Shown here: piece after piece, positions 14,337-22,475 of the stretch
Layout: each line of letters starts with the position of its first letter
How positions within the stretch are numbered: the first letter of the stretch is position 1
DNA from: Candidatus Marinarcus aquaticus
GTDB lineage: Bacteria > Campylobacterota > Campylobacteria > Campylobacterales > Arcobacteraceae
Reading direction: 5' to 3'
DNA length: 64,000 bases
NCBI RefSeq assembly: GCF_004116335.1
Contig: NZ_PDKN01000003.1
Coordinates: 62,001 to 126,000, forward strand
Translations under genes and position numbers: made by a program
The notes under the pieces: generated by a model
What the model was told of the DNA's origin: nothing
The model's input: only the letters and a program-made list of their open reading frames with translations
Database searches by the model: none

Positions 14337-14370
14337 AAAACAAAGAGGCTGCGCGAAGCTTCTTTGTTTT
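14337..14370 (-). terminator. Terminator hairpin at the end of the HD-GYP/Sia operon
   Basis: AAAACAAAGA pairs with TCTTTGTTTT and the stem continues inward to 14 bp with one G-U pair. It overlaps the TAA of the HD-GYP gene. Because the stem is bounded by A and T tracts it could work in both directions between these convergent genes. The 150 bases to its left (14184-14336) are AT-rich, with a TATAAT at 14286 but no gene that I can support. Confidence 0.65.
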
Positions 14371-15169
14371 ATTCAAACACATCTTTCAACTCTTCTCGAA
14401 TCAGCAAGAACTCATCTAAATGTTCAAAGAATATATCCACCAATTGTGGATCAAAGTGTTTACCACGCTCCTCTTTAAAAAAATTAAAGATGCGCTCATC
14501 ATCCCATGCTTTTTTATAACATCGGTCACTGCCTAATGCATCAAAAACATCCGCCATGGCTGTGATTCTTCCATAAACATGTATTTGTTCACCCTTAAGT
14601 CCTCGTGGGTAACCTGTACCATCCCACTTTTCATGATGCTCATACGCAACCGTTGCCGCCATTTTTAAAAGTGGTCGTTGAGAGTGTTGCAACATGTTAT
14701 AGCCTAACTCTGCGTGTGTGTTCATAATCTCTCGCTCCGCTTCATCAAAACGGCCAGGCTTATTTAAAATCGCATCGGGAATAGCGACTTTTCCAATATC
14801 ATGCATGGGACTGGCTTGTTTAAGAAGCTCTGCCTCTTTTTGAGGAAGTCCCAAATACAAAGCAAACACTTTTGAGTATTCTGCCACTCTTTTTACGTGG
14901 TTACCGGTCTCTTTACTTCTGCTTTCACCAATTGCCCCCATGGTAAAGACAACTTCTCTTTGAGTCTCTTCTATCTCTTTACTTAAAGCTTCTACCTCAT
15001 CAAGTCGTATTTGCAATTCATCATACTCTTGTTGTTGTCGTTTATCACTTCGTGCCATGATTTTATCATGTCGTCGAATATCTTTTATAATTTTATCGGT
15101 TGTTTGTGCAAAACTCTTTTTAAGCTCTTCTAATTCACCTATGAGTTTATTCTCTTGGATAGTATCCAT
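14369..15169 (-). CDS. HD-GYP domain c-di-GMP phosphodiesterase with N-terminal coiled coil
   Basis: Cytosolic protein of 266 residues, last gene of the Sia-like operon. Residues 1-75 are highly charged and helical and probably form a coiled coil; residues 85-240 are an HD-GYP domain. Metal and catalytic residues are intact: H91, H123-D124 in HDIGK, H178-H179 in YEHHEKWDGTGYPRGL, the GYP signature at 186-188 and D207 in MADVFDALGSDR. HD-GYP proteins hydrolyse c-di-GMP. ATG 15169 is preferred over GTG 15172 because GGAG lies seven bases before it. There is no receiver or sensor domain, so control probably comes through the coiled coil and a neighbouring protein. In Pseudomonas the SiaC target is a GGDEF cyclase; here an HD-GYP takes that place. 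Confidence 0.88.
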   Translation of the reverse strand: MDTIQENKLIGELEELKKSFAQTTDKIIKDIRRHDKIMARSDKRQQQEYDELQIRLDEVEALSKEIEETQREVVFTMGAIGESRSKETGNHVKRVAEYSKVFALYLGLPQKEAELLKQASPMHDIGKVAIPDAILNKPGRFDEAEREIMNTHAELGYNMLQHSQRPLLKMAATVAYEHHEKWDGTGYPRGLKGEQIHVYGRITAMADVFDALGSDRCYKKAWDDERIFNFFKEERGKHFDPQLVDIFFEHLDEFLLIREELKDVFE

Positions 15170-15260
15170 CACTCGTCTCCTATAGATAATAAGCAGTTCA
15201 TGAACTTAAAAGTAAACACTGCACGGTTCACTTTCTTTAATGAGCTCATCAAGGAATTCA

Positions 15261-15635
15261 TTACTTGCTGAGCAAATTAAAATTTAAGCTTTCAAAATCT
15301 TCTTTAAAATCCTCACCTGCTTCTAACGCACTCTCATTCTCTTTATCATAAATCCATCTGATTTCAATATCGCTTTTATCTCTGTTTTCTTCAATTAAAT
15401 CAAAAAAATCAAAAAAGAGTTTTGAACTGCTTGAATTAAAATAAATAATTTCTAATTCTACTATCGTTTTTATTTGCGGTCTTGAGAAATACTCTTTCAT
15501 CCATGACATGATGGGTTCATAAAACTCAAATGTATTTTCAGGATATGATTTTCCTTCCATTTTGATATGACCTGTTTGTGCATTTAAGTTAATGGCTGGT
15601 GTATATTTAGTCGCTTCTATTATTAAGTTATTCAT
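15261..15635 (-). CDS. SiaC-family regulatory phosphoprotein (DUF1987)
   Basis: Soluble protein of 124 residues covering one DUF1987/SiaC domain. The opening IEATKYTPAINLNAQTGHI and GKSYPENTFEFYEPIMSW are the family hallmarks. The segment YFNSSSSK places S68 where Pseudomonas SiaC has its phosphorylated Thr68, from memory of that work, so the target site is probably conserved as Ser. SiaC switches between phosphorylated (bound to neither) and unphosphorylated (activating its cyclase) states under SiaB kinase and SiaA phosphatase. AAAGGAGA six bases before the ATG is a strong ribosome-binding site. It is followed by the HD-GYP gene after 91 bases and preceded by the SiaB-like gene. Confidence 0.88.
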   Translation of the reverse strand: MNNLIIEATKYTPAINLNAQTGHIKMEGKSYPENTFEFYEPIMSWMKEYFSRPQIKTIVELEIIYFNSSSSKLFFDFFDLIEENRDKSDIEIRWIYDKENESALEAGEDFKEDFESLNFNLLSK

Positions 15636-15646
15636 TGATTTCTCCT

Positions 15647-16195
15647 TTATTGTTTGTTGAGTACTTCTACTTGAAAATGGAAGTAGTATTTTTCATCGTT
15701 GATGGGTTTAAACTCAAAATCGATTGCATCACACCGTTTTGCAATCTCATAAAAGCCAATTCCACCCCCTTTCCCATGAGTGTTTTTACCACTCCGTCTG
15801 AGTTCTCTGTAGGTTTGTTTTAATTCATCTTTATTGAGTTTTTTAATTTTTTGTAACACGGGTTCTATTTTGTCCCTGTCTTGTTTATCAATGATATTTT
15901 GCGAGTGTAAATAATAGCTTCCATTACTGTTTCTTCCAACCACAATCAAACCTTGAGATTTTAAATCAACGCAATCTTGAGATTTTGTTTTAGAATAGTT
16001 CATCATATTTTGCGACAGTTCAATGAAAATAGTAAAGATATTGTTTGCAATGCCTTTATTAAGATCCCCTATCTCTGCTTCATTTTCTAAAGCTTCAGTC
16101 ATTCCTGCAATAAGCGTTTGAGATAAAAACCCTCCATATGTTAAAAACACAATTCCATCTTCTTCTACGATTTCTTGTATGACTTTAATATCCAT
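15647..16195 (-). CDS. SiaB-like GHKL-fold protein kinase
   Basis: Soluble protein of 182 residues. It carries the GHKL ATPase elements seen in SiaB: an N-box-like FIELSQNMMNYSK (about residues 52-64) and a glycine-rich lid NTHGKGGGIGFYEIAKRC (about 140-157). The N-terminal FLTYGGFLSQTLIAGMTEALE is shared with the SiaB family. It would phosphorylate the SiaC-like protein encoded 11 bases downstream. It is not an anti-sigma factor in the strict sense, though the fold is related to SpoIIAB/RsbW. The start ATG at 16195 has AAGGC upstream, a modest site, suggesting coupling to the preceding receiver gene. Confidence 0.85.
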   Translation of the reverse strand: MDIKVIQEIVEEDGIVFLTYGGFLSQTLIAGMTEALENEAEIGDLNKGIANNIFTIFIELSQNMMNYSKTKSQDCVDLKSQGLIVVGRNSNGSYYLHSQNIIDKQDRDKIEPVLQKIKKLNKDELKQTYRELRRSGKNTHGKGGGIGFYEIAKRCDAIDFEFKPINDEKYYFHFQVEVLNKQ

Positions 16196-16204
16196 GGTTT
16201 TGCC

Positions 16205-16558
16205 TTATAATATTTCTTCTATTGTACGATTAAATGTCTCTTGTGTATAGGGTTTTTTAATCACCTTTTTAACACCCAGTTTTATGGCATGTATCAACTC
16301 TTTTTTATCTTCAACAGAGGTGATTAATACAATTTTTAAATTTGCATCCAACGCCAACAATTGTTTAGATGCTTCAACACCATTGAGTACGGGCATCTCA
16401 AAATCCATCATAATATACGACGGTTTATATTCATGATAACACTTGATGGCTTCTTCCCCATTACACGCTTGAGCTATGACTTCATATCCCAATGAAGCCA
16501 AATATTCACAAACACGCTTTCGAGCCAAAGCTGAATCATCAACAACTAAAAATTGCAT
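16205..16558 (-). CDS. Single-domain (CheY-like) response regulator
   Basis: Receiver of 117 residues with no output domain. The acidic pair is in FLVVDDSALARKR, the phosphoacceptor Asp is in YIMMDFEMPVLNG (about residue 53), the switch Thr/Ser is in VLITS and the lysine is in VIKKPY. All needed residues are present, so phosphorylation is expected. It lies between the soluble kinase gene and the SiaB-like gene, so it may pass kinase state to the Sia switch or to motility proteins. The start is three bases after the kinase stop. Confidence 0.9.
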   Translation of the reverse strand: MQFLVVDDSALARKRVCEYLASLGYEVIAQACNGEEAIKCYHEYKPSYIMMDFEMPVLNGVEASKQLLALDANLKIVLITSVEDKKELIHAIKLGVKKVIKKPYTQETFNRTIEEIL

Positions 16559-16561
16559 CTT

Positions 16562-17509
16562 TCACCCTTTTCTCATTTTTTTAAGTGTAAACATGGCACC
16601 ATTTTCAATATTCTTTGCTTCAAGTTGAAGGCTGTTTTTTTCAGCTATGAGTGCACTCAGATATAGACCTATGCCGGTTCCTTTACCATCTTTAGATGTG
16701 GTGACATTGGCTTTAAAAATATCATTAATAATCTCTTTATTAATACCTCCTGCATTATCAGAAATTTCAATAACTTGATGCGTTGGTGTGGTATAGGTTT
16801 TAATATGAATGACTCTAGAAGAGATACTGTTTCGAATAAATGCATCTTTGGCATTATTGACAATATTTAAAAGGATATGTTTGAGTTCATTTTCAATGCC
16901 TATCATCTCAAAATTCTCTTCAATCTGCGTTGAAAAGCTTATGCGATTTTTTACAAACTCATCATTGACAAACAATAACACTTTGGCGATCATCTCTTTG
17001 ACATAAAAGCTTTGCTTCTCTTTATCTTCTCTGAAAAAGTTTCTGAACTCTTTGAGCGTTGTATTCATGTGTTCAATCACATGAGATATTTTTTCTTGAT
17101 GCTGTTGAATATACTCGGCGTTGACTTTACCTGCTTGGAAATCAAACTCTAAAGAAGAGGTATGCAGCTTGATGATACTCAAGGGTTGTGCCCATTGGTG
17201 TGCAATGGCATCGATCATCTCCCCCATGGCGGCAAACTTTGATTGGTCTAATAACATCTGCTCTTTTTGCTTACGTTTAACAATCTCCTCTTCCACTTTT
17301 TTTTCAAGATTGTTTTTATACTCATCAAGCTCTTCATTGGCTTTAAGCAGTTGCATCTGCATTTTATCACTTTGTTTGATGATTTTATCAAGCCGTTGAC
17401 TCTTTCGTTTATAATCATCCAATAAATCCATCATATCATCACGAAATTGATGATACTCTTTTTCTAAGAATTTACCAATATACATCGAACTGTTCTTTTT
17501 TTCACTCAT
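16562..17509 (-). CDS. Cytosolic histidine kinase with N-terminal coiled coil
   Basis: Kinase of 315 residues with no membrane segment. Residues 1-95 are charged and helical (coiled coil). The dimerisation/phosphoacceptor motif is AIAHQWAQPLSIIKLH (His about 108), the HQWxQPL type. ATPase boxes are ILLNIVNNAKDAF (N), EISDNAGGI (G1) and DGKGTGIGLYLS (G2). The start overlaps the receptor-phosphatase stop (ATGA), so the two are translated together. It presumably phosphorylates the receiver encoded downstream. The input signal is unknown, but the coupling suggests physical contact with the membrane receptor. Confidence 0.88.
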   Translation of the reverse strand: MSEKKNSSMYIGKFLEKEYHQFRDDMMDLLDDYKRKSQRLDKIIKQSDKMQMQLLKANEELDEYKNNLEKKVEEEIVKRKQKEQMLLDQSKFAAMGEMIDAIAHQWAQPLSIIKLHTSSLEFDFQAGKVNAEYIQQHQEKISHVIEHMNTTLKEFRNFFREDKEKQSFYVKEMIAKVLLFVNDEFVKNRISFSTQIEENFEMIGIENELKHILLNIVNNAKDAFIRNSISSRVIHIKTYTTPTHQVIEISDNAGGINKEIINDIFKANVTTSKDGKGTGIGLYLSALIAEKNSLQLEAKNIENGAMFTLKKMRKG

Positions 17510-20500
17510 ATTTTAACTCCTACAACTGCTATATCATCATTTCTCTCTTCGTCACCTTGATACTCCATCAGTGTATACAAAAACTGCTCTTGCTGATCAG
17601 CGCATGAGTAGCTATGAAATTCTTCAATAAGTTGTGCAAATCTTCGTTTACCAAAAGGAAATCCTTTTGCTCCACCGTTTTGATCCAAATACCCATCAGT
17701 ACTTAAATAAAAACTCATCCCTTTTTGTGTTTCAATCACATGTTCTTTAAACTCAAAATTTCGATCACTCTTTTTATAACCAATCGAGTGACGATCGGCT
17801 TTAATGATATTAAGTTTGCCCTCTTTTACATAAAAAAGTGGAATATTTGCACCTGCATATTTAATCATAGCCTTCTTTTTATTGTAGCATAACACACCCC
17901 CATCAAATCCTGCATTGGAAATCGAATTTTCATCCTCTTGTTTTAACAGATGTTTCATGCTTCTGTTAAAAATTTTTAGAATTTTAGCAGGGCTTAGCTC
18001 TTCTTTTTTATTGATAATGGTGGATATAATTTGTCGTTCTATGGCTTTAACCAACATGGTTACAAATGCGCCAGGGACTCCGTGTCCTGTACAATCAATG
18101 ACCATAAGCAAAGAAGTATCTTCATCCAACTCTTCAAACAAATAGACATCACCACCTACAATATCTTTGGGTTGCCAAATCGCAAAATAATCACTGAAGA
18201 AACCTCTAAAGATCTCACTTGAAGGGATAAGGGTATGTTGAATCAAGGAGGCATACTCAATGGAATCTTGTGTATTTTGATGCAATGCTTCAATCTTCTT
18301 TTTTGCATTTTCTAAATCCAAAGTTCTCTCTTCAACTTTTTTTTCAAGATTGATACTTAAATCCTCAACAATCTTTTTATTGGTAATATCTTGACTGATT
18401 GACTTATAACCAATGTGTTCTCCATCATTATTGTACTCTGGTTCAATTCTTGAATAGACCCAATAATCACTGCCATCTTTGGCCTTGTTTTTTATCTCTC
18501 CTCGCCATTGCATTTTTGATTTGATGGTATTCCAAAGTTTTTCAAACACCTCTTTAGGCATTTCAGGATGCCTTAAAATATTTGTTGATTTGCCTATCAA
18601 CTCTTTTTCTTGGTAACCACACACCTCACAAAATGCTCTACTTGGATGGGTAATCACACCTTGCAAATCCGTTTGTACAAAAATTACATTTCTATCAAAA
18701 GAGTCTAAAAGTGTCTGCAACTCCTCTTTTTGTTCTTGAATATTTTGTGTCTTTTTATCCACCAAAGATTTAAGTTTTCTGTTCCAATATACAATCAATG
18801 CCAAAATAATGGCAATAACCAAAACTACCGGAATGATATAGGTAATAATGCGTTGAAGAGAGAAACCCGTATTTTGTTCAACTTTAATATCCAACCATCC
18901 ATTATAGATGCGTTCTCTCTCTTTTTCTGTGATGGATTCAAAAATCTTATTCACAATAGAGTGCAACTGTGGGAGTGAAGGTTGAATCAAAAAGTGATGT
19001 GAAAAATCCTGCCCGGCATCACCTGAAATTTTCAGATTATCTTTTCCTATTTTCGCAATATTATACACTGCTGGTGCAATATGCCCCACAAAGACATCTG
19101 CTTTTTCATTCGAGACATTAAAAAGAGCTTCAGGAACATTTTTGGCCTCTAAAATCTTCGCTTTGGGATAAAGCGATTTAACATAATTATAACTGCTGTA
19201 ATGTTTGGGTAAAGCAAATATATTATTTTTAATCGAATCCATTGAATTGACATATTCAATGTTTTCATTGGTCACAACCACCATGGGATATTGGGCAAAG
19301 GAACGAGTGATCAATCCTAATTGCATCTCTTCTTTAGTGTTACTCACTCCAGGAACCAAATCAATTTCACCCTTTTTAAACTTATCCAGTACATCTGGCC
19401 AAGATTTTGAAGGCACAAACTCAAACTCTATACCTGTAAGATCTGCAACCATATTGAGATAATCTCCCATAATACCAGACATAGCATTGTTCTCTATGAT
19501 TGAAAGTGGTTTCCAATTTACTTCACTGTAACGCACAATAGGACGACGATCCAACCACGCATACTCTGTATTGGTAAATTGTACTCGTTTTCTTTGTTTA
19601 AACCATTTCAGACGAAGTTCATCAACCTCTTTTATAGAGACATGGTTCATTGTTTTTTTCAAAATTGATTGTAAAAGTGGTGCCCCTTTACGAACTGCTA
19701 TATAGAGGTTCTCCATCTCTGGATCATCTGCTTTTACATCCGCTGTATATTTTAAACCTTTGATAAGATTTTCAGAAATCAAATAATTAAACACGGCTGT
19801 TTTTCCAAGGGTTGCATCCACATCACCAAAAACAACTGCCTTTAATGCACTCATTGCATCGTTATATTTCACCACTTCAATTTTTGGATATCGTTTTTCT
19901 AAAAACTCCTCATAGATAAAGCCCTTCACTACTGAAACTTTTTTTCCAAACAAAGATTCGAGGTTTGAAATATCTGTGCGATTTTCTTGCGTTAAAACAC
20001 CGGCCACATTTCGTGCATAAACGCCCACGTAAAGCAGCTTTTTTTCTCTTTCTGATGTACGAGCAATATTCATCATCACATCAAGTTCATTGGTATATGT
20101 TTTGTTAAGCAATGTATCCCAATTGGCCGTTTGAAACTGTACTTTTAAACCACTTTTTTCTGCTAACAGTCGTATATAATCTATGGAGAAGCCCATTGGC
20201 TCACCATTTTTATTAAAATTAAAAGGAGCCCAATCTCTTTCATTGTGTACGGTTATGATCGGATGACTCTTTATCCAAGCTTCTTCTTCTTTCGTAAATT
20301 GAAGTTCTGGGATAACCTCTTTTAAACACAGATAAATATCCCCAATATCTTCCCCTTTGAGTTCAATATTAGACACTTTTTTTCTTTGACAATCATTGGA
20401 CAATGTTTCATCAGTACTTTGACGAAGTCGAATGGTGCTGTATTGGTCTCGATAATATACAGCGAACTCTTCATTCACAATGGTATCTTTAACAATGATA

Positions 20501-20673
20501 TATTGCACATCGATGTTATCATTCATAAAGGCTTCAAGAATTGTATTGGCTTCATTATTACTCAACTCAAACAAAGGATGAGCAAGTGCAGCAGAGAGTT
20601 CTCGAATTTCTCTTTTCTCAACACCCAACAAAAATTGAAACAGGACAATACAGATAAAAAAAAGTCGTATCAT
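17506..20673 (-). CDS. SiaA-like membrane receptor: two binding-protein domains, PAS and PP2C/SpoIIE phosphatase
   Basis: Large receptor of 1055 residues. In order: a signal/membrane segment (1-17), a short periplasmic region, a first SBP_bac_3 domain (about 130-370, WAPFNFNKNGEPMGFSIDY), a second one (about 380-605, WKPLSIIENNAMSGIMGDY), a membrane segment (about 613-635), a coiled-coil linker, a PAS domain (about 660-775), a second coiled coil, and a SpoIIE-type PP2C phosphatase (about 830-1055). Phosphatase motifs are DIVGGDVY, DCTGHGVPGAF, STDGYLDQNGG and NDDIAVVGV, with the metal-binding Asp residues present. Known SiaA is a membrane PP2C phosphatase that dephosphorylates SiaC; here BvgS-like tandem Venus-flytrap domains replace its usual sensor. 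The gene begins three bases after the stand-alone binding protein gene. Confidence 0.88.
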   Translation of the reverse strand: MIRLFFICIVLFQFLLGVEKREIRELSAALAHPLFELSNNEANTILEAFMNDNIDVQYIIVKDTIVNEEFAVYYRDQYSTIRLRQSTDETLSNDCQRKKVSNIELKGEDIGDIYLCLKEVIPELQFTKEEEAWIKSHPIITVHNERDWAPFNFNKNGEPMGFSIDYIRLLAEKSGLKVQFQTANWDTLLNKTYTNELDVMMNIARTSEREKKLLYVGVYARNVAGVLTQENRTDISNLESLFGKKVSVVKGFIYEEFLEKRYPKIEVVKYNDAMSALKAVVFGDVDATLGKTAVFNYLISENLIKGLKYTADVKADDPEMENLYIAVRKGAPLLQSILKKTMNHVSIKEVDELRLKWFKQRKRVQFTNTEYAWLDRRPIVRYSEVNWKPLSIIENNAMSGIMGDYLNMVADLTGIEFEFVPSKSWPDVLDKFKKGEIDLVPGVSNTKEEMQLGLITRSFAQYPMVVVTNENIEYVNSMDSIKNNIFALPKHYSSYNYVKSLYPKAKILEAKNVPEALFNVSNEKADVFVGHIAPAVYNIAKIGKDNLKISGDAGQDFSHHFLIQPSLPQLHSIVNKIFESITEKERERIYNGWLDIKVEQNTGFSLQRIITYIIPVVLVIAIILALIVYWNRKLKSLVDKKTQNIQEQKEELQTLLDSFDRNVIFVQTDLQGVITHPSRAFCEVCGYQEKELIGKSTNILRHPEMPKEVFEKLWNTIKSKMQWRGEIKNKAKDGSDYWVYSRIEPEYNNDGEHIGYKSISQDITNKKIVEDLSINLEKKVEERTLDLENAKKKIEALHQNTQDSIEYASLIQHTLIPSSEIFRGFFSDYFAIWQPKDIVGGDVYLFEELDEDTSLLMVIDCTGHGVPGAFVTMLVKAIERQIISTIINKKEELSPAKILKIFNRSMKHLLKQEDENSISNAGFDGGVLCYNKKKAMIKYAGANIPLFYVKEGKLNIIKADRHSIGYKKSDRNFEFKEHVIETQKGMSFYLSTDGYLDQNGGAKGFPFGKRRFAQLIEEFHSYSCADQQEQFLYTLMEYQGDEERNDDIAVVGVKI

Positions 20674-20676
20674 GGT

Positions 20677-21366
20677 CTACTCGATATACTGATTTATGAT
20701 TTTTAGTATTTCATCATCTACTTTTTGAGAGCACATCATATAACGTTTATTACCTTGGGGCATATCATGCACAGGGATAAACTCTAAACTTTCATATTTT
20801 GATTGTTCTAATAAAACAGATGCCTCTTCATACGCCATGAACATAAAATCTGCTCTTTTTTTCATAATCAATTCAAGCATTTTCTGATTATCTGTATACA
20901 CTTCCGTAGTACGTGTTTTATACTCTTTGATTTTATTGTCTACCAAATTCCCATAAGAGTAAGAAGCTTTGGTTAAAAGTCGTTTGGGTATTTTTAAAAT
21001 ATATTCGAGCTTTTTATTTTCAAAAATAGGTTTCTCTTGTTGCCGTATGACAATGCCCATGGGTTGATCTTGATACAACACTTTTGAAAATTTTGCAAAA
21101 GTTTCTCTTTGAGAAGTTTTAAACCAACCCAAAGCACATATGAGTTTTTGATTGCTTTTTATTTCATGTAGGTGTCGTTTTGAAGGTTTCTCTTTTAATT
21201 CATACTCAATACCAGAGCGTGTTAAAGCATTGAGTGCAGGTGTGGCAACCAATCCTTTTATTGAGCCATTATTTTTTTGGATATAAGGAATTCGTTCTTC
21301 ATAATCAATCTCTAAAGAGCCTAACGTTGTAACAAGTAAAGGTATCATTAATAATATGATTTTCAT
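20677..21366 (-). CDS. Periplasmic solute-binding protein (SBP_bac_3-like), first gene of the Sia operon
   Basis: Secreted protein of 229 residues with signal peptide MKIILLMIPLLVTTLGS. The body resembles family-3 binding proteins: IPYIQKNNGSIKGLVATPAL near the N-terminus and LELIMKKRADFMFMAYEEASVLL in the second lobe. No transporter genes are nearby, so it probably serves signalling by offering ligand to, or competing with, the adjacent receptor phosphatase. The ATG at 21366 is chosen because the signal peptide begins there and AAAGG lies upstream; a start at 21417 would put 17 polar residues ahead of it. Sequence divergence from well-known binding proteins is large, so the ligand is unknown. 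Confidence 0.78.
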   Translation of the reverse strand: MKIILLMIPLLVTTLGSLEIDYEERIPYIQKNNGSIKGLVATPALNALTRSGIEYELKEKPSKRHLHEIKSNQKLICALGWFKTSQRETFAKFSKVLYQDQPMGIVIRQQEKPIFENKKLEYILKIPKRLLTKASYSYGNLVDNKIKEYKTRTTEVYTDNQKMLELIMKKRADFMFMAYEEASVLLEQSKYESLEFIPVHDMPQGNKRYMMCSQKVDDEILKIINQYIE

Positions 21367-21394
21367 CACGAAGCCTTTTAGGTTTAACTGTACT

Positions 21395-21400
21395 ATAATA
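21395..21400 (-). promoter_or_regulatory. Candidate -10 box for the Sia-like operon
   Basis: On the minus strand TATTAT lies about 30 bases before the ATG at 21366 in an AT-rich stretch. It is the only plausible -10 box in the divergent 166-base region shared with the 21533 gene. Confidence 0.35.
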
Positions 21401-21532
21401 TCATATTTCAATAGCAATTGTCATCTTTTCTTTACTATTGATAACTGTTATCACTCAATTGGTTACTCAATAATCTAAAAAGAGTCCTCTTATGCGGTAT
21501 GTTTTTTGCATACAGAGTACAAAGGAGAAGAT

Positions 21533-21959: not shown

Positions 21960-22475
21960 ATGCCACTATTAGACAGTTTTAGAGTAGACCATACCATTAT
22001 GCCTGCCCCTGCAGTTCGAGTTGCAAAAACAATGAAATCACCATCTGGTGATGTAATTACTGTATACGATTTACGATTTTATGTACCCAATAAAGAGAAA
22101 ATGAGTGCCAAAGGAATTCACACGTTAGAGCATCTTTTTGCTGGATTCATCCGAGAACACTTAAACTCAAAAAACGTAGAAATCATCGACGTATCTCCAA
22201 TGGGATGCCGAACTGGTTTTTACATGAGCCTTTTGGGAAATCCAAGTGAGAAAAAAGTAGCAAAAGCATGGAAAGATGCTATGAAAGACGTACTTGCCGT
22301 TAAATCACAAAACGATATTCCCGAACTTAATGAGTACCAATGTGGTACCTATAAAATGCACTCTTTAAAATCTGCGCAAAGCATTGCCAAAGATATTTTA
22401 AGACGAGGTATTGATGTTATGAATAACAAAAAACTCTTCTTGAGTGAAAAGAAGATGAAAAAACTGGGTCTGTAA
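21960..22475 (+). CDS. luxS: S-ribosylhomocysteine lyase LuxS
   Basis: Enzyme of 171 residues that cleaves S-ribosylhomocysteine to homocysteine and DPD, the autoinducer-2 precursor. Metal ligands are visible in HTLEHLF (His-x-x-x-His) and in the C-terminal [10 protein letters not shown] cysteine. The catalytic Cys is in GCRTGFYM and the catalytic Glu in HTLEH. AAAGGA before the ATG is the ribosome-binding site. It supplies homocysteine to the MetH encoded in the same window. It overlaps the next gene by one base (TAATG), so the following methyltransferase-like gene is co-translated. Confidence 0.95.

Follow-up and report, generated by a model that had tools for sequence, protein, structure and literature searches.

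The minus-strand operon at 21417–14369 of the window (the whole 64,000-nucleotide stretch analysed here) probably encodes a Sia-type partner switch with an HD-GYP protein as its output, in which SiaC would activate c-di-GMP hydrolysis. A bacterial phospho-switch known for turning on a c-di-GMP-making enzyme seems, both here and in numerous relatives, to be connected through the same short docking helix to an enzyme predicted to destroy c-di-GMP; a histidine kinase is probably a second target in this operon. SiaC–SiaD, the single structurally known interaction, can thereby be turned into a readable code, in which a short stalk motif predicts the clients of a Ser/Thr partner switch. The commonest reading of this code in the sampled Campylobacterota is HD-GYP, the opposite enzyme to that of the known case, and the same kind of input could therefore lower c-di-GMP rather than raise it.

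The seven genes of the operon, mostly overlapping or abutting, encode from 5′ to 3′ a solo SBP protein, a receptor phosphatase, a histidine kinase, a receiver, a SiaB-like kinase, SiaC, and the HD-GYP protein. The first, a periplasmic SBP_bac_3-like protein (20677–21417, minus strand, as for all operon features below), scored 26.0 bits, just below the cut-off of 26.4; its likely ATG at 21366 is the upper bound that a previous sequence-only reading had given to the system, and the protein lies outside every defining feature of the Sia switch. The SiaA-like receptor (17506–20673) consists of two SBP_bac_3 domains, a membrane helix, a PAS domain, and a C-terminal PP2C/SpoIIE phosphatase domain (SpoIIE, 71 bits) with the PP2C motifs present. 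The SiaA equivalog NF038263 matches it only over residues 769–1054 (267 bits, below the cut-off of 700), and the membrane PP2C receptor of a SiaABC system is recognised here through the SpoIIE domain in combination with the sensor domains. Between the phosphatase and SiaB are located the genes of a histidine kinase (16562–17509), identified by domain and motif matches as having an N-terminal dock, an H-box (HQWAQPL), and an HATPase_c domain, and of a single-domain receiver protein (16205–16558; Response_reg, 81.7 bits). The SiaB-like kinase (15647–16195; NF038262, 129 bits; cut-off, 85) contains the N box (ELSQN) and the G box (GKGGGIG), and is thus of the SiaB-type HATPase Ser/Thr kinases. 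It is followed by SiaC (DUF1987; 15261–15635; PF09345, 139 bits; cut-off, 24.5) and, after a gap of 88 nt that folds no better than its shuffles (z –0.74), by the last gene (14369–15172, with the ATG at 15169 as the likelier start), which encodes an HD-GYP protein of the E-T-G (PmGH-like) subfamily (HD_5, 121 bits) with an N-terminal coiled coil. Promoter and terminator scans of the operon region yielded matches at chance level. On the opposite strand, luxS (21960–22475; PF02664, 194 bits) is found just upstream. Domain matches thus confirmed every component that the sequence-only reading had placed in one minus-strand operon (PP2C receptor phosphatase, SiaB-like kinase, SiaC/DUF1987, and HD-GYP as the last gene), but that reading had passed over the histidine kinase and the receiver.

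The SiaABCD system of Pseudomonas aeruginosa (PDB 7e6g; PMC8457831) shares with this operon the SiaC fold, the position of the phosphosite (Thr68/Ser68), the SiaB-like kinase, the PP2C receptor phosphatase, a SiaC-binding stalk motif in which S, D, and Q occupy corresponding positions, and an effector gene directly after siaC. In contrast, the effector is HD-GYP here and GGDEF there, i.e., siaC is followed by an HD-GYP gene and not by the SiaD diguanylate cyclase by which a strict SiaABCD system is defined; moreover, the effector has one dock instead of two, SBP and PAS are the sensory domains of the receptor, and the operon includes a receiver as well as a histidine kinase with a dock. SiaC, present in one copy in its own genome, gives a full-length alignment of 114 residues to its P. 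aeruginosa counterpart (PDB 6kko/7e6g); it scored 115 against the NCBIfam SiaC equivalog, below the cut-off of 150, the assignment as SiaC (DUF1987) coming from PF09345. Ser68 (codon 15434–15432, minus strand) aligns with the Pseudomonas Thr68 and is the predicted phosphosite. Position 68 is Ser in 21/21 aligned Campylobacterota SiaCs, so that the phosphorylatable residue characteristic of SiaABC is provided by Ser instead of Thr.

In the SiaC–SiaD crystal structure, SiaC grips the stalk motif around R74, K77, V78, R80, I81, S82, D83, R84, Y85, and Q86, of which S82 and Q86 contact Thr68 of SiaC, and activates SiaD by stabilising the stalk dimer; the motif for SiaC binding reads K-V-x-x-x-S82-D-x-x-Q86 (PMC8457831). 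A predicted SiaC dock with the corresponding client pattern, K-[hydrophobic]-x-x-x-S-D-x-x-Q, is present in the HD-GYP coil (KIMARSDKRQ; 15035–15064, minus strand), and another in the operon's histidine kinase (KIIKQSDKMQ; 17357–17386, minus strand), both matching the SiaD residues that contact SiaC in the structure. A SiaD-like GGDEF protein from the gammaproteobacterial sample (L227) has two docks 32 residues apart (RIARVSDGYQ and KVARISDRYQ). When the own genome was searched with a DNA pattern requiring a basic-type residue after SD, those of the HD-GYP protein and the histidine kinase were the only real docks. The remaining matches, in ClpB-like and glycosyltransferase-like proteins (named from sequence) and in other unrelated or non-coding regions, were rejected. 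Among the 30 GGDEF loci of the genome, for the longest proteins of which the fetched locus may stop short of the N-terminus, none had a dock; a SiaD-like GGDEF protein as the real partner of SiaC, which the sequence-only reading had named as evidence that would speak against it, was therefore not encountered.

The catalytic domain of the HD-GYP protein matches PmGH of Persephonella marina (PDB 4mcw; E 3.7e-65), to which it is identical at all eight metal ligands, the GYP residues, K225, I294, D308, and the substrate ligands R314 and K317 (residues per PMC4159591); the eight ligands together with the GYP motif mark it as a predicted HD-GYP phosphodiesterase, the substrate of which would be c-di-GMP. 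The two proteins differ in that PmGH has a GAF domain where the HD-GYP protein has its dock coil, and in that D183, required for the activity of PmGH (PMC4159591), is Ser here. The "intact" catalytic site noted previously accordingly holds with this one exception. SiaC and HD-GYP of a close homologue (L111), joined by natural stop read-through, were modelled as one chain with AlphaFold (pLDDT 88, pTM 0.59). The two folded parts of the model match the PmGH and SiaC structures, and the N-terminal coil of HD-GYP forms one long helix (residues 136–211), in agreement with the coiled coil read earlier from the sequence.

The distribution of the dock was surveyed with the strict expression [KR][IVLM]...SD..Q in 101 loci in which a SiaC was recognised; 22 came from the 397 sampled Campylobacterota genomes and 79 from named genomes, a few loci of the two sets being from the identical genome. 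The dock occurred in 54 of the 204 genes adjacent to SiaC, 11 of 191 at distance 2, 9 of 489 at distances 3–5, and 0 of 439 at distances of 6 or more; shuffled proteins gave 1 match in 1455. With a slightly relaxed expression, 55/60 SiaC-linked HD-GYPs had a dock versus 0/21 unlinked ones, and inspection of those HD-GYPs from other genomes whose alignment covers the dock columns showed that they lack it. A DNA pattern for the HD-type dock matched in 12/397 Campylobacterota genomes. In one match, a Thr codon replaces that of the dock Ser, and this match was discarded as not being the motif; the other 11 are all in SiaC-adjacent HD-GYPs, corresponding to 11/20 SiaC-containing genomes versus 0/377 others (Fisher p 2e-16; such p-values overstate independence, because genomes and loci share descent). 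In 45 of 49 adjacent pairs, HD-GYP is directly downstream of SiaC on the same strand. According to the record titles, such pairs occur in Arcobacter, Sulfurimonas, Sulfurospirillum, Vibrio, Marinobacterium, Pseudoalteromonas, Thiomicrospira, Mariprofundaceae, and Rhodoferax, several records being metagenome bins with possibly wrong taxon labels. The conservation of SiaC–HD-GYP adjacency proposed earlier as a check is thus seen across phyla, together with the dock motif. The two genome samples suggest HD-GYP as the commonest neighbour of SiaC in Campylobacterota and GGDEF in Gammaproteobacteria, the frequencies of the locus classes being biased because the named loci were chosen by similarity to Campylobacterota SiaCs. 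Two SiaC-adjacent HD-GYPs of Sulfurospirillum (L047:8453–9259 and L148) have Ala for the dock Ser (KIMTKADKRQ).

The same dock is shared by two HD-GYP subfamilies, one compact with E-T-G and the other long with Y-T-G at the position equivalent to PmGH E185, whose dock regions are 62–75% identical while their catalytic parts are 35–42% identical. The coil is thus more conserved than the enzyme though non-catalytic, which argues for a selected interaction. A search of the PDB with a profile of 22 HD-GYP coils failed to retrieve SiaD, and the case for homology of the dock is therefore built on the motif, on its context, and on co-occurrence rather than on a profile score. Over 80 pairs, the mutual information of the dock columns with those of SiaC showed no interface signal, the top pairs being mostly outside the interface.

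From these observations, the following mechanism may be proposed. The receptor phosphatase would sense a ligand through its periplasmic SBP domains, and these would control the PP2C domain; SiaB would phosphorylate SiaC, probably at Ser68, and the receptor phosphatase would strip off the phosphate. Unphosphorylated SiaC would then bind the HD-GYP stalk dock, stabilise the dimer, and switch on c-di-GMP hydrolysis, whereas phospho-SiaC would be unable to bind the dock; SiaC would probably also bind the dock of the histidine kinase and thereby tune the receiver protein. Of these steps, the predicted binding of SiaC to the HD-GYP dock is well supported by the sequence comparisons. Phosphorylation at position 68 and binding only in the unphosphorylated state would follow from the analogy with Pseudomonas, and activation is the more likely effect, as SiaD goes from an inactive oligomer to an active stalk dimer; the sign of the output would then be reversed relative to Pseudomonas. 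Points against this mechanism are that HD-GYP has one dock and SiaD two, that the dock is a short motif from which a profile search does not reach SiaD, that covariation was uninformative, that Ser stands at the position of PmGH D183, and that the two Sulfurospirillum relatives have Ala for the dock Ser. It is unlikely, but worth weighing, that SiaC binds the HD-GYP dock and instead inhibits or sequesters the phosphodiesterase, so that dephosphorylation would raise c-di-GMP with the same sign as in Pseudomonas: the dock evidence is equal for either sign and HD-GYP could be active by itself, but the sole known case is activation by stalk-dimer stabilisation, with no pointer to inhibition in this operon.

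The histidine kinase bears on the output in another way. Because it has the same dock, HD-GYP is probably not the sole client of SiaC, and the earlier claim that SiaC acts on HD-GYP, which the dock in the coil and the adjacency across phyla make most likely, should be broadened to that extent. In five loci (L038, L115, L128, L133, and L135), a kinase is the sole dock-bearing neighbour of SiaC, and in three (L029, L031, and L152), a dock-bearing HD-GYP and a dock-bearing kinase are both present; the motifs suggest that SiaC output may likewise be branched to HD-GYP and kinase in this operon. These five loci, and the dock of the operon's own kinase, could also be taken to mean that the kinase is the real client, with the kinase–receiver pair as the output and HD-GYP as a co-regulated neighbour or, as a title on DvhD, an HD-GYP protein in the PDB, might suggest by its mention of c-di-GMP receptor regulation, a c-di-GMP receptor. 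We regard this as quite improbable, since most related loci have a docked HD-GYP beside SiaC without a dock-bearing kinase, and the HD-GYP dock itself is highly conserved. That the motif is a mere coiled-coil feature in a chance or historical gene order, SiaC acting on something else, would agree with its shortness, the lack of a profile-level match to SiaD, and the negative covariation, but is very improbable in view of an enrichment and phyletic co-occurrence far from chance, a coil more conserved than the catalytic domain between subfamilies, and a genome in which the pattern used found no further dock.

A system of this kind has in part been foreseen. DUF1987 proteins have been proposed to modulate adjacent proteins (PMC8457831), and a 2022 survey predicted, in several Campylobacterota, a PP2C / stas_STYK / STAS switch acting on "a c-di-GMP turnover enzyme" (PMC9239204). 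In the part of that survey available, the gene logic, the phylum, and the neighbourhood-based prediction are common to the present case, whereas the text names no HD-GYP, SiaC-type DUF1987, docking motif, or kinase branch; nevertheless, the description of the system as undescribed in the sequence-only reading was too strong. HsbA–HsbD of Pseudomonas and BgrV–BgrR of Sinorhizobium likewise have a small phosphorylatable partner controlling a c-di-GMP enzyme, but the partner is STAS instead of DUF1987 and the outputs are diguanylate cyclases (PMC8457831). A literature search, with subscription papers largely outside its reach, found no description of SiaC with HD-GYP, nor one that treats the dock as a motif of general use.

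A dock is likewise seen ahead of GGDEF, class III adenylate cyclase, HisKA kinase, hybrid kinase, HATPase–CheX, and SpoIIE domains. On a SiaC tree, which is indicative only, being poorly resolved and built from few columns, the output would have changed at least 6 times between HD-GYP and another type, and at least 7 times between compact and long HD-GYPs. Evenly balanced, in our judgement, is a wider reading, in which SiaC would be a general phospho-switch for coiled-coil dimers, acting through a portable ten-residue dock fused to two HD-GYP subfamilies, diguanylate and adenylate cyclases, histidine kinases, HATPase–CheX proteins, and PP2C phosphatases; in this operon, a single SiaC would control both the predicted phosphodiesterase and the histidine kinase, and would so link Ser phosphorylation with c-di-GMP and two-component signalling.

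Several individual dock-bearing proteins were found in the surveyed loci. Two class III adenylate/guanylate cyclases with the dock KIVKISDRQQ (L035:682–1683 and L037:1926–2927) are encoded three genes away from SiaC and hint that cAMP, too, may be under its control. HATPase proteins with an N-terminal dock adjoin or lie near SiaC in L170–L172 and L176 (about 717 aa) and in L032:5066–7027, with a weak to clear CheX match at their C-termini. A 291-aa SpoIIE/PP2C protein (L139:5054–5929) carries the dock on a phosphatase, suggesting a possible feedback of SiaC. A 77-aa ORF comprising approximately the dock helix alone (L028:9401–9634), located between a PAS–GGDEF gene and a dock-bearing kinase, could act as a SiaC titrator. 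Between SiaC and HD-GYP of another locus lies a 300-aa protein with no Pfam match and a partial dock (KMIKLSDNMGGE; L033:7058–7960). Finally, in one SiaC locus (L132:2326–5719), an HD-GYP with a dock is accompanied, three genes further along, by a GGDEF protein that also has a dock and whose active-site motif looks degenerate (SGDSF).
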